Of a DNA stretch of 64,000 nt, positions 11,481 to 16,444 are shown piece by piece. This stretch comes from Methanobrevibacter millerae (GTDB lineage: Archaea > Methanobacteriota > Methanobacteria > Methanobacteriales > Methanobacteriaceae): assembly GCF_001477655.1 (NCBI RefSeq), contig NZ_CP011266.1, positions 2,030,001 to 2,094,000 on the forward strand, read 5' to 3'. A program made the position numbers and the translations under genes. How positions within the stretch are numbered: position 1 is the stretch's first letter; every line of letters begins with the position of its first letter. The notes under the pieces are model-generated. The model had not been told where the DNA came from, ran no database searches, and saw only the letters and a list, made by a program, of their open reading frames with translations.

Positions 11481-12971
11481 CTATTCATTTTTTGCCATTT
11501 TGACACCGATTGATCCGGTACCAAGAGGTATTGGTTGTCCAATAATAATATTTTCGATGATACCGGTTAAATCATCTACTTCACCACGAATACTTGCGTT
11601 AAGTAAATGTTTACCAGTTTCTTCAAAAGCTGCACGTGCTAAAACACTTGATTTTTCACCACTAATACCATGTCTACCAATAGATTTTACTTCACCCTCG
11701 GAAGTCATGATATCTGCAACTAACATAATATGTCTTACATCAACAGTAAGCCCTTGTTCTGAGAGAGTATTATTAGCCTCATTAATAATTGATTGACGAG
11801 CTGCTTCAATACCTAAAACATCTTCGATTTCACGAATACTGTTAGTTGTAGTTCTCCTAGCATCAATTCCATCAAAAGATAAAATTTCTTTAAGATTGGA
11901 TCCTTCAGTGTGAATAACCCATTCTTCATCTTTACGAATAATGACTTTACCAATTTTTTTGACACCACTGATTTGTAAATCACGAACTTTATCTGCTAAC
12001 AAACGGAGATTACGGATTCTGTGTCTGTCATCCCCATCCTGCTTAGGCTTGATTATTATGAGATTACCATTGATTTCTGGTTTCTCTTTTTTAAAGTCAG
12101 CTTCGATTTTTTGAATAATATCCTCTTTGACAAGTCTTCTTTCATCTATTTTTTTATCTGACAATGTAGCTTCAACTTGCATTTCAGCATAATTTAAGTT
12201 AAAATCATCAAGAATATCGTTAATAGTACTTTTTCCAATTTTATTTGCTAAAGTCTTAACAAATTCTTCATCATAACGTTTGTCTTCCTCAAAGTAAATA
12301 TCCATTGTTGGAGTTGCAATGTCTTTTCTTGCATCAACAATCTCAATAAGTCTCGGAAGACCTAATGTTACGTTTAATTCAGTAACCCCTGCATAGTGAA
12401 AAGTACGCATAGTCATCTGAGTACCCGGTTCACCAACAGATTGTGCAGCTACTGTTCCAACAGCCTCTCCAGCTTCAACATGAGCTCGGTCATAGGCAGT
12501 TTTTAGCTTGTCAACAAGTTTATCTAATTCATCATCAGTTAAATCACGACGAGTATAAGCATTTGCTAAATCTTCAACATAACCTTTAGGGAATTCAATA
12601 CCTTTATCGAATAGCACATTTAAAACTTTATCGATGACAGATATTTGGCCAATGACAGAGTCCAAATCTTCTTCGGAAAGTTGGTTAGTATTGAATTTGC
12701 TGAAAATATTTTTAATATAATAATAATCCAACAATTCAATATCATTTTCCTCTAAAGTTTGTGAAAATTCAACAAAATCCATATTAAATTGATTTAATAA
12801 ATTACAAATTAAATTAATATTTTTTAATTTAGCGATTATTTCTTCAAATACTTCATCAGTAACATCTATTGAATCATAATCCACTAAAATATTTTTAATA
12901 TCATAATTTTCTGGAATGCAAATATTACGCTCTTCCAAAGTATTTTGCACTTTTTCAATTAATTCATCCAT
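11481..12971 (-). CDS. rpoA2: RNA polymerase subunit A'' with triplicated N-terminal module
   Basis: The C-terminal 330 residues are standard A'': the motif [31 protein letters not shown] starts near residue 165 (bridge-helix/trigger-loop region), and the end has GRHGISG and [15 protein letters not shown]. The whole protein is 496 residues, clearly longer than the roughly 400 usual for the subunit. The extra length is N-terminal. Residues 12-49, 73-110 and 120-156 are three diverged copies of one unit. They share LEERNI/LEENDI/LFDKGI, then Y-x-I-K-N-I-like and Y/F residues, then V/LT/SDEE-x-L/F. The third copy is the normal N-terminal part of A''; the first two look like added duplicates. The gene is 11 bases downstream of rpoA'. 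Confidence 0.95.
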
Positions 12972-12982
12972 ATTTACACCCC

Positions 12983-15900
12983 TTATTTACCTACCTGAGA
13001 TATTTCATTAGATTTTTCTTCTAATTTAATCTCTTCAATGAGTTTGTCTAAGTTTGCTGCTATACCAAAGTCACTTTTAGCCGGATCTACTCCATCGTCA
13101 CCAAAGATTCTTTGAACAACATTACTTTGATTATCAGTTACAAGTCCGGATGGTTTTACCTGCAAGTCTTGAAGTGCGTTTACAAGTCTTCTTTGCATAT
13201 AACCTGATTGTGCTGTACGAATCGCAGTATCTACAAGACCTTCTCTTCCCCCCATTGCGTGGAAGAAGAATTCAATTGGGTCAAGTCCAGATTTATAACT
13301 TGAATGTACAAATCCTTTCGCTTTTGCCCCTAATTCGTTTCTTTTGAAGTGAGGCAATGTTCTTTCAATGTAACCCCTGTGGATACGTCCACCCCTAACT
13401 GCCTGTTGACCTACACAGGAAGTAATCTGAGTCAAGTTCAACATGGATGCCCTAGCACCGGTACGTGCCATGACAACAGAGTGATTGTGTTCCATAGTCA
13501 AGTAATCTTCTGCAATTTCACCAGATTTATCCCTAGCTTCCCCGAGAACTTGCATGATTCTCATTTCCAAAGTTTCTTCTAAACTTCTACCCGGCAAAGC
13601 ATCAAGAATACCTTCATTATATGCATCAATTAATCTATCTACTTTTTCTTCAGATTTTTGTAAATGCTCATTAATCCTTGCTTGAGCTTCTTCAGGAATT
13701 TCTTCATCGTTTAGACTGGTGGTGATACCAGTTACCATGATTCCACAGATAGCTAAGTCAGTTGATCTGTCTAAGAATTCTTTAGCTCTTCCAGGACCAT
13801 ATTCTTTAACTATTTTATCCAAAATTTGACCAGACATGGATCCATATGCTTTTTCATCGATTACTCCATGTTTTAAGATACCATTTTCAATCATAACATA
13901 AGCATCAATAGGACATAATTTATCATAATCGACAACTGATGGGTCAGGTGCCTCTCTTAAAATTTTGTCACATTGACCACATTTAGTACAAATTTCAGCT
14001 TTATAAGTTAAGTTTAAGTTATTTGGTAAGAGTAATGAGAATAACTCTTTACCAGTCCACTCATCACCATTATTTTTAATTATAAGTGAATCAGAGTTAT
14101 CTTCAGCATCTGATGAATATTTAGCAGCGATTTCATCAGCAATACGTTTCTTTGCAATGTTTTTAATGGTTTCTTTTTCTTCATCATCCCATTTGTTTGC
14201 TTTGAGACGTTTAGCTATTTCATCTTCAGTTAAATCTAAAGTGTTAAGATAAACTTCCTTATCTGCTTTAGTTCCACGGACATTTTTAGTCTTTTTAGCA
14301 ATTTCTCTTTCAATTTCCGGGCTTTCTTGAGATTCCGCTTTTAAAATCCATTTTTCCCCATCGTTTTGAGGTATTGGTAAATGTGATTTACGAACAATTT
14401 GCAATGCTTGTTCTTCAGTGAATTTCATTGTTTTTCTTGTTAACAGATATGCTCCAGAAATGTGGTCGTGAATTGCACCGATAATTGGTCCACCGAACCT
14501 TGGAGATAAAATGTGCTCTTGTACACGCATTAATGATTTTGCTTCTGCACGGGATTCATCAGTTTGGAAAACGTGCATGTTCATTTCGTCTCCATCGAAG
14601 TCTGCATTGTATGGAGGACATACACATAAGTTTAACCTGAAAGTTTTGTAAGGCAATACCCTTACTTCGTGTGCCATCATACTCATTCTGTGAAGAGAAG
14701 GTTGACGATTGAATAAAACCATATCTCCATCTTTCAAATGTCTTTCTACAATATCACCAGGTTTTAAATTCTCAAGGATAAATTCTTTTGTATCCTCATT
14801 GATTTTCCTTCTGTTTCCTGATTCGGTAATCATATAATTAGCACCAGGGTGTACATCAGGACCGTTTTCAATATATGTTTTGATTTCATCGATGTTCCAG
14901 TCATTTACATAAGCAGGTACGGTTACCTCTTTTGCAATCATTTCAGGAACACCAACTTCATTAATACTGATATTTGGATCAGGAGAAATTACAGTACGTG
15001 CTGAAAAGTTTACACGTTTACCAGAAAGGTTTGATCTGAATCTTCCTTCTTTTCCTTTTAACCTTTGAGTTAAGGTTTTTAATGGTCTGCCTGACCTATG
15101 TTTGGATGGTGGAACACCACTAGCCTCATTATCAAAGTAAGTGGTAACATGATATTGTAATAAATCCCATAAATCTTCAACAATTAATTGTGGAGCACCC
15201 GCTTCCATATTTTCAACTAATCTTTGATTAATACGTAAAATATCTACAAGCTTGTGAGTCAAGTCATCTTCTGAACGTTCACCAGTATCCAAAGTAATAG
15301 AAGGTCTAACAGTTACTGGAGGAACAGGTAAAACAGTTAAAACTAACCATTCAGGTCTAGCAACTTCAGGATTGATACCTAATACATATATATCTTCATC
15401 ATTGATTCTTTCGAGCCTTTCCCTGATTTCAGAAGCGGTTAACTTATATTCACCTTGGCTGATAGTAGTAGGCTTATCCAAAACAATGGATTCCTGAACA
15501 AGATCTTGAATATATGCTTTGATATAATCTCTGATACGTCTTTTAAATTCGTTGCTGAATTTCTTATCAGATTTTAATTCTTGTTCTTCAACTAATTTAG
15601 CCCTTTCTTCTTCTAATTTTTCAACTTCTTCACTGCTAATATCTTCAGCAAGTTTTTTATCGATTTTTTCTATTTTTTTAGTGTATTCGTCATCGATATT
15701 TGCACGGATATTTTCTTTGATGGATTCAATATCCGCAGTATTTTTTGTTTCGATTATATCATAGCTTGCTTCGATATCTTCCAAAGATTGGTTTTTCCTA
15801 CAATGAGGACAAAGCTGTTTTGGGTCGATGTACTTGAATGAATGTTTCTCTTCAGTTTCATCCCTTTCCATATATGCTTCAGCATAAAGTTGGTTCAAAA

Positions 15901-16444
15901 TATTCAACAAAATATCCTGTCTATCTGCATCATCATACTCATCATCCTTTTCAGGATAGATTTCACTCATGATTTTATCAACAAGATCATTTTGTTTGTT
16001 TTCATTCATTTCAACTTTTTTAGCTTCATTTTGAATCTTTTTTAAGATATCCTCCAAGTTTTCTTTATGATTTACTGCATCAGCAAGTTTTTCCCTGTAG
16101 TCATCTAAAACATCCTCAGGCAAGAGAACACGACCACAGTGATTACAAGTAGAACGTAAAATCTTGTGAATAATATCTCCAAAACCAACATGAAGAACAG
16201 GTCTTGCAAGTTCAATACTACCAAAGTGTCCTTGACAATCCCCACCTCTGACACCACAAGTGTGACATCTTAAAGAAGGATCTAAAACACCTAAACGAGG
16301 ATCCATTAAACCATTTTCAATTGGATAACCATCAGAGTCATAAGTATCTGGAGTTTCTACACGAACAACAGACATTTTACGAATATCTTCTGGAGACATT
16401 AATCCAAAGTTAATTCTTTCAATTTTTTTGATAAATTCTTTCAA
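12983..16444 (-). CDS. rpoA1: RNA polymerase subunit A' with large insertions
   Basis: This is the largest RNA polymerase subunit half. It has the clamp zinc ligands C60, C63, C70 and H73, further Cys pairs at 100/103 and 212/215, the [18 protein letters not shown] region (about 474-491), and the catalytic [10 protein letters not shown] at about 613-622, whose aspartates bind the active-site Mg2+. At 1153 residues it is well above the roughly 870-900 of typical euryarchaeal A'. The excess sits in charged, helix-rich segments at about 111-210, 231-315 and 700-790. A Cys cluster (CTKCGQC, then CP) follows the third insertion. The gene lies 18 bases downstream of rpoB', and GGAGCCGG precedes the ATG. 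Confidence 0.96.

Follow-up and report, generated by a model that had tools for sequence, protein, structure and literature searches.

The window, i.e., the whole 64,000-nucleotide stretch of Methanobrevibacter millerae DNA analysed here, carries the genes for RNA polymerase subunits A' and A'' (Rpo1C) on its minus strand, with A' (12983-16444, 1153 aa) directly upstream of A'' and 11 bases between them (Table 1). Reading of the surrounding sequence placed a B subunit upstream of this pair and L30e, a NusA-like KH protein and S12 downstream, together with S7, EF-2, EF-1A and S10. The Pfam profile RNA_pol_Rpb1_5 was shared out between the two proteins, with positions 1-67 found at the end of A' and positions 48-265 in A'', where the core was present at E 1.2e-55; among solved archaeal chains, A'' was matched by P. 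furiosus Rpo1C (E 4e-108). The window A' also contains two inserts (approximately residues 145-316 and 705-780) that are absent from many relatives in the genus.

A sequence-only reading of the window had described a 38-residue module occurring three times in residues 12-156 of A'' (12938-12504, minus strand), and the open reading frame, its coordinates and these residues were all reproduced here. A wrongly assigned start codon is unlikely because an SD-like site was seen only before the far ATG, none being found on reading the sequence ahead of internal ATG64 or GTG119, and because codon-level constraint covers the extension. An intein was rejected, as the frame is unbroken and the extra sequence matches the module.

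Table 1 Features of the A'' gene in the window.
Feature	Position	Strand	Evidence
RNA polymerase subunit A'' (Rpo1C), 496 aa	11481..12971	-	ORF; Pfam RNA_pol_Rpb1_5; solved Rpo1C chains
Gap from A' stop to A'' ATG, with SD-like GGGGTG	12972..12982	-	direct reading: TAAGGGGTGTAAATATG
Extra module copy 1, residues 1-51	12819..12971	-	14.8-18.9 bits; profile-profile E 4.3e-8; second-best genome match
Connector, residues 52-69, possible degenerate half copy	12765..12818	-	module-like start by eye
Extra module copy 2, residues 70-110	12642..12764	-	7.2-11.2 bits; profile-profile E 8.8e-6 to normal module
Normal A'' N-terminal module (copy 3), residues 111-160, part of foot	12492..12641	-	66.9 bits
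A'' core, residues 161-496	11484..12491	-	42-46% identity to solved archaeal Rpo1C (structure match); invariant motifs kept

Triplication of the A'' N-terminal module

The N-terminal module of the window A'' is triplicated, with two extra, diverged copies in front of the normal one. When 93 single-copy A'' proteins, none of which belonged to the window clade, were used to build a normal-module profile, three parts of the window A'' matched it: residues 1-51 at 14.8 bits, residues 71-109 at 7.2 bits and residues 112-160 at 66.9 bits. In solved Rpo1C chains, it is the N-terminal part with which the last of these segments aligned. Its earlier identification as the ordinary A'' N-terminus was right, as was the description of the first two copies as additional and more diverged. 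Scored in isolation, residues 1-62 and 50-114 reached 18.9 and 11.2 bits, respectively, values attained by none of 2000 shuffled segments (null maxima of 9.3 and 9.4 bits), and the 527 tiles taken from the other long frames of the window scored at most 4.8 bits. Profile-profile comparison likewise gave significant similarity among the three segments: copy 1 matched the normal module with E 4.3e-8 (prob. 95), copy 2 matched it with E 8.8e-6 (prob. 83), and the two extra copies matched each other with E 1.2e-9 (prob. 96). Against the clade's own copy 3, copy 1 gave E 2.6e-6 (prob. 89) and copy 2 a weak E 0.0025 (prob. 12). Triplication was thus borne out by profile E-values and shuffles, although the boundaries first proposed for the modules were slightly too narrow. 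Residues 52-69 did not compare significantly with the module profile (E 0.008, prob. 5) and were rejected as a further copy.

When the whole 2.54 Mb genome was searched in six frames, the module matched copy 3 best (88 bits), with copy 1 in second place (18.7 bits, E 0.005); copy 2 went undetected, and the only further match was a 22-codon frame (E 0.28). No donor copy was found elsewhere in the genome. Copy 2 is the weakest link in the repeat evidence. It was clearer in two relatives, reaching about 13 bits with the normal-module profile in G021 and G102, and a search of the entire G102 genome gave it 19.9 bits (E 0.0026).

Distribution in the genus and recurrence in other archaea

Among the 54 genomes of the genus that gave a match, 11 had the long form of A'' (G000, G009, G013, G019, G021, G031, G034, G096, G102, G103 and G111), and the named relatives sharing the extension are Methanobrevibacter, including M. 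millerae SIG13. Nearly all remaining genomes carry single-copy A'' frames of 385-411 codons, so that an excess of about 100 residues, as noted from the sequence, holds for the 496-aa window protein. In every complete long-form member examined, 169 or 170 residues precede the VGTVAAQS motif. A tree built on the A'' core without the extension, in which nine long forms were taken in, grouped these in a single clade (SH-aLRT 100) that branches within the single-copy relatives; the long/short label required about six changes on this tree, counting in the unrelated extensions of G032 and G061. The window A'' departs from the single N-terminal module and the length of about 380-410 aa by which archaeal Rpo1C may be recognised, and it is a variant of archaeal A''/Rpo1C and not a non-member.

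One module, not three, is what the majority of the examined archaeal A'' proteins carry, and single copies are the norm throughout the outgroups and in most genera. Extra copies nevertheless recur outside the window clade, so the sequence-only reading of an internal duplication at the A'/A'' break was right for this locus but too narrow. One extra copy (residues 2-46, 10-17 bits) was found in eight genomes that presumably belong to a Methanothermobacter-like family. In another genus of the family, the sequences of ruminantium-type genomes (G077, G083, G092 and G093) reveal three extra copies (up to 33 bits), and one more unit is indicated by the helix pattern alone, giving four or five copies in all; this fourth unit is unrecognisable by sequence in G077, and a structure model of a relative of G077 continues the helical pattern where it would lie. 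Two copies in a row (26 and 24 bits, L110) occur in Poseidoniales, which belong to another archaeal phylum.

The extra copies look like independent local tandem duplications, a reading favoured over one ancient array since they are most similar to modules of their own or neighbouring lineages. Those of the ruminantium type scored best against ruminantium-type single-copy modules, and window copy 1 against single-copy modules of its own genus and its nearest neighbours (G062/G063); the best-scoring modules for the Methanothermobacter-like extra copy included those of a sister family (f3). Window copy 1 and the Methanothermobacter-like copy barely matched in profile-profile comparison (prob. 5), which points the same way. 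Judged from these sequence comparisons, the N-terminus that the A'/A'' split sets free within the Rpb1 foot appears to be a recurrent site of growth.

Several other A'' proteins differ in architecture. The 342-residue N-terminus of G061 contained no clear extra copies, and the long N-terminus of G032 was rejected as a module because its domains are apparently different and beta-rich by eye: its 589-codon frame (L044) has approximately 190 added N-terminal residues resembling two beta-rich, carboxypeptidase-regulatory-like domains, again by eye. Thermoplasmata-type and Poseidoniales A'' have N-terminal extensions that begin with a helix-hairpin-helix-like segment and are approximately 60 to 370 residues long (L110, L118, L121, L124, L130, L134, L137, L148 and L154). 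Acidic, low-complexity inserts occur in the middle of ruminantium-type A'' (L162 of G079, L168, L173 and L170) and are very long in G093, and the G079 protein has a C-terminal repeat (GGKGKSGGSASESKEVNSGIA). About 10 kb from its normal A'' gene, G093 also has a second, diverged A''-like gene (L171, G093:C9:218000-224000), in which the motif is altered (VGIIAGQSIGEAFTQM) and beside which the stretch read contains no A'. Diverged A'' genes in which the otherwise invariant motif is altered directly follow A' in G127 (L177) and G156 (L178), and these are possibly second polymerases or fast-evolving ones. Second A'-like genes were seen in two Methanothermobacter-like genomes (G041:C2:109178-111331 and G047:C1:232995-235001).

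Predicted fold, constraint and probable position in the foot

AlphaFold2 was used to model the N-terminal 256 residues of a multi-copy relative (L099), with block pLDDT values of 88-98 over residues 11-220. Its helices span residues 26-37, 43-62, 69-80, 86-105 and 112-124 in the first half and 129-145, 151-164, 173-186, 193-206 and 210-237 in the second, and the end of one copy is joined to the start of the next by long helices. The window A'' model has an equivalent order of helices (2-14, 26-32, 39-61, 66-72, 83-90, 100-123, 129-141 and 146-163), with pLDDT mostly 78-87 over them; the scores of both models came from shallow alignments of 17 and 31 sequences, and helical repeats can receive inflated predicted confidence. 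The whole-chain model of the window A'' was poor (pTM 0.49), perhaps owing to the missing partner subunits. Foldseek matches were mainly to designed helical repeats (best E 0.05) with no natural fold relative at a significant E-value, and neither Pfam nor the PDB yielded a significant match to a natural repeat family (e.g., TPR, HEAT). No Pfam family scored above its cut-off in A'' residues 1-115, the best being DUF5891 (18.8 bits against a cut-off of 27). The models suggest that the tandem copies probably form an alpha-solenoid of helical hairpins for which no close natural relative was found.

Median dN/dS values of 0.21 in the extension, 0.15 in the normal module and 0.07 in the A'' core show purifying selection on the extension, which evolves about three times faster than the core. 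Since the module stretch as a whole is far less conserved than the core, the earlier remark that a duplication here is unexpected in such a conserved subunit was overstated. Clade-wide identity is 80% for copy 1 and 82% for the normal module but only 59% for copy 2. Net charge per 100 residues is -16 to -20 in the extension, about -3 in the core and -12 to -17 in ruminantium-type arrays; single-copy modules are acidic as well (mean -9.9), and acidity is therefore not peculiar to the extra copies. Such an acidic extension would suit protein docking or spacing more than nucleic-acid binding.

When aligned to yeast Rpb1 (chain 1i3q_A), the last 134 residues of A' corresponded to residues 774-877 and the start of A'' to residues 1037-1145. 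The interval between them (878-1036) we take to be the foot, which places the A'/A'' break, and hence the array, within it. As the array begins at this break, it would be expected to project from the foot, away from the active site, and the new surface that the sequence-only reading envisaged on the polymerase is plausible.

Interpretation and comparison with known systems

Overall, we consider it probable that the foot has grown repeatedly, by tandem duplication, into an acidic helical arm with a possible docking role. The structural part of this explanation, duplication into a helical arm, we hold with considerable confidence. The A'/A'' split would leave a chain end free, at which the N-terminal module could be duplicated in tandem and in frame. 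In the predicted arrangement, each copy ends in a helix that continues as the opening helix of the next copy, with a short helix after it, and through this continuity the copies would stack into an alpha-solenoid standing out from the foot as an acidic arm. The arm may then offer an extra docking surface, or act as a spacer, for a lineage-specific partner, by analogy with the eukaryotic foot, which contacts the capping enzyme (PMC6107522) and has been described as an interface for DSIF and PAF (PMC7747717). This last step is put forward tentatively, as a serious possibility somewhat short of an even chance, and the fact that close relatives of the window clade get by without extra copies counts against it, as do the faster evolution of the extension and the low conservation of copy 2.

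Growth close to neutrality is a strong rival to the docking part and a credible account, if not the one we would choose. The chain end would simply tolerate additions, slippage would duplicate the module, and selection would maintain only foldability and solubility, leaving an arm with no specific partner. Quite different additions at the same chain end in G032, Thermoplasmata and Poseidoniales are in keeping with this, as are the absence of extra copies in close relatives, the divergence of copy 2 and the inflation of this family's polymerases elsewhere (the jaw inserts of ruminantium-type A'', and A' frames that range from about 900 to 1164 codons across the genus). However, conservation across the clade is as high for the outermost copy as for the normal module, and an array of constant length in 11 species exceeds what pure tolerance needs.

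The two remaining alternatives concern the copies themselves. That a single ancient multi-copy array was inherited and then lost from most lineages is improbable: within the ruminantium-type genus, G093 and G079/G090/G095 do hint at a single loss or at a wrongly placed branch, but single copies in all outgroups and most genera, the closeness of extra copies to modules of their own or neighbouring lineages and the scant match between window copy 1 and its Methanothermobacter-like counterpart all argue against it. A chance likeness of charged, amphipathic helices that are not homologous is very improbable and, for copy 1, largely excluded by the shuffles, the low-scoring unrelated tiles, the absence of any match of similar strength from the rest of the genome, profile E-values as low as 1e-9 and the clear copies of multi-copy relatives; what speaks for it is that copy 2 taken alone is weak (7-11 bits) and that the module profile also matches the sequences of designed helical-repeat proteins.

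RNA polymerase is among the most conserved machines of life, and its large subunits seldom change architecture within a genus; the organisms concerned here are abundant rumen and gut methanogens. To our knowledge, the archaeal foot has been little studied, and a series of A'' with one, two, three, four or five copies is natural material for asking what its role is. Searches of the open literature, subscription journals being outside their scope, found no papers on A'' repeats or extensions in Methanobacteriales. The recurrence of growth at this site suggests that the division of Rpb1 into A' and A'' made a free chain end available for growth. A broader proposition, that archaea have repeatedly and independently made the foot end of A'' a helical-repeat arm recruiting lineage-specific factors, we regard as doubtful. 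If it were true, the arm would bring factors such as chromatin or RNA-processing proteins to the polymerase during transcription and would serve as a recruitment platform made of repeats, with a role like that of the eukaryotic Rpb1 tail, at a different site of the enzyme.

The window A'' is the same subunit as the Rpo1C of P. furiosus, Thermococcus kodakarensis and Sulfolobus, sharing their core and normal N-terminal module, but it has 496 residues, compared to 391-397 in the solved chains, and two further module copies in front. The foot of eukaryotic Rpb1 and RPC1 occupies the same place in the polypeptide as the array and is multihelical, variable and, in Pol II, a partner-binding surface (PMC6107522, PMC7747717); eukaryotic feet are, in contrast, one continuous insertion, for which we found no report of tandem module copies, whereas the A'' array consists of such copies. 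Alpha-solenoids and designed helical repeats stack helical hairpins as predicted for the array, which differs from natural repeat families in having a unit of approximately 42 residues derived from the polymerase's own foot module. Lineage-specific insertions of bacterial RNA polymerase, such as the BEAN and HABAS domains, are, like the array, repeated and polyphyletic additions to large subunits (PMC11515920). However, these are insertional, have other folds and lie mainly in bacterial beta and beta', whereas in A'' a resident module was copied at the end of an archaeal chain.
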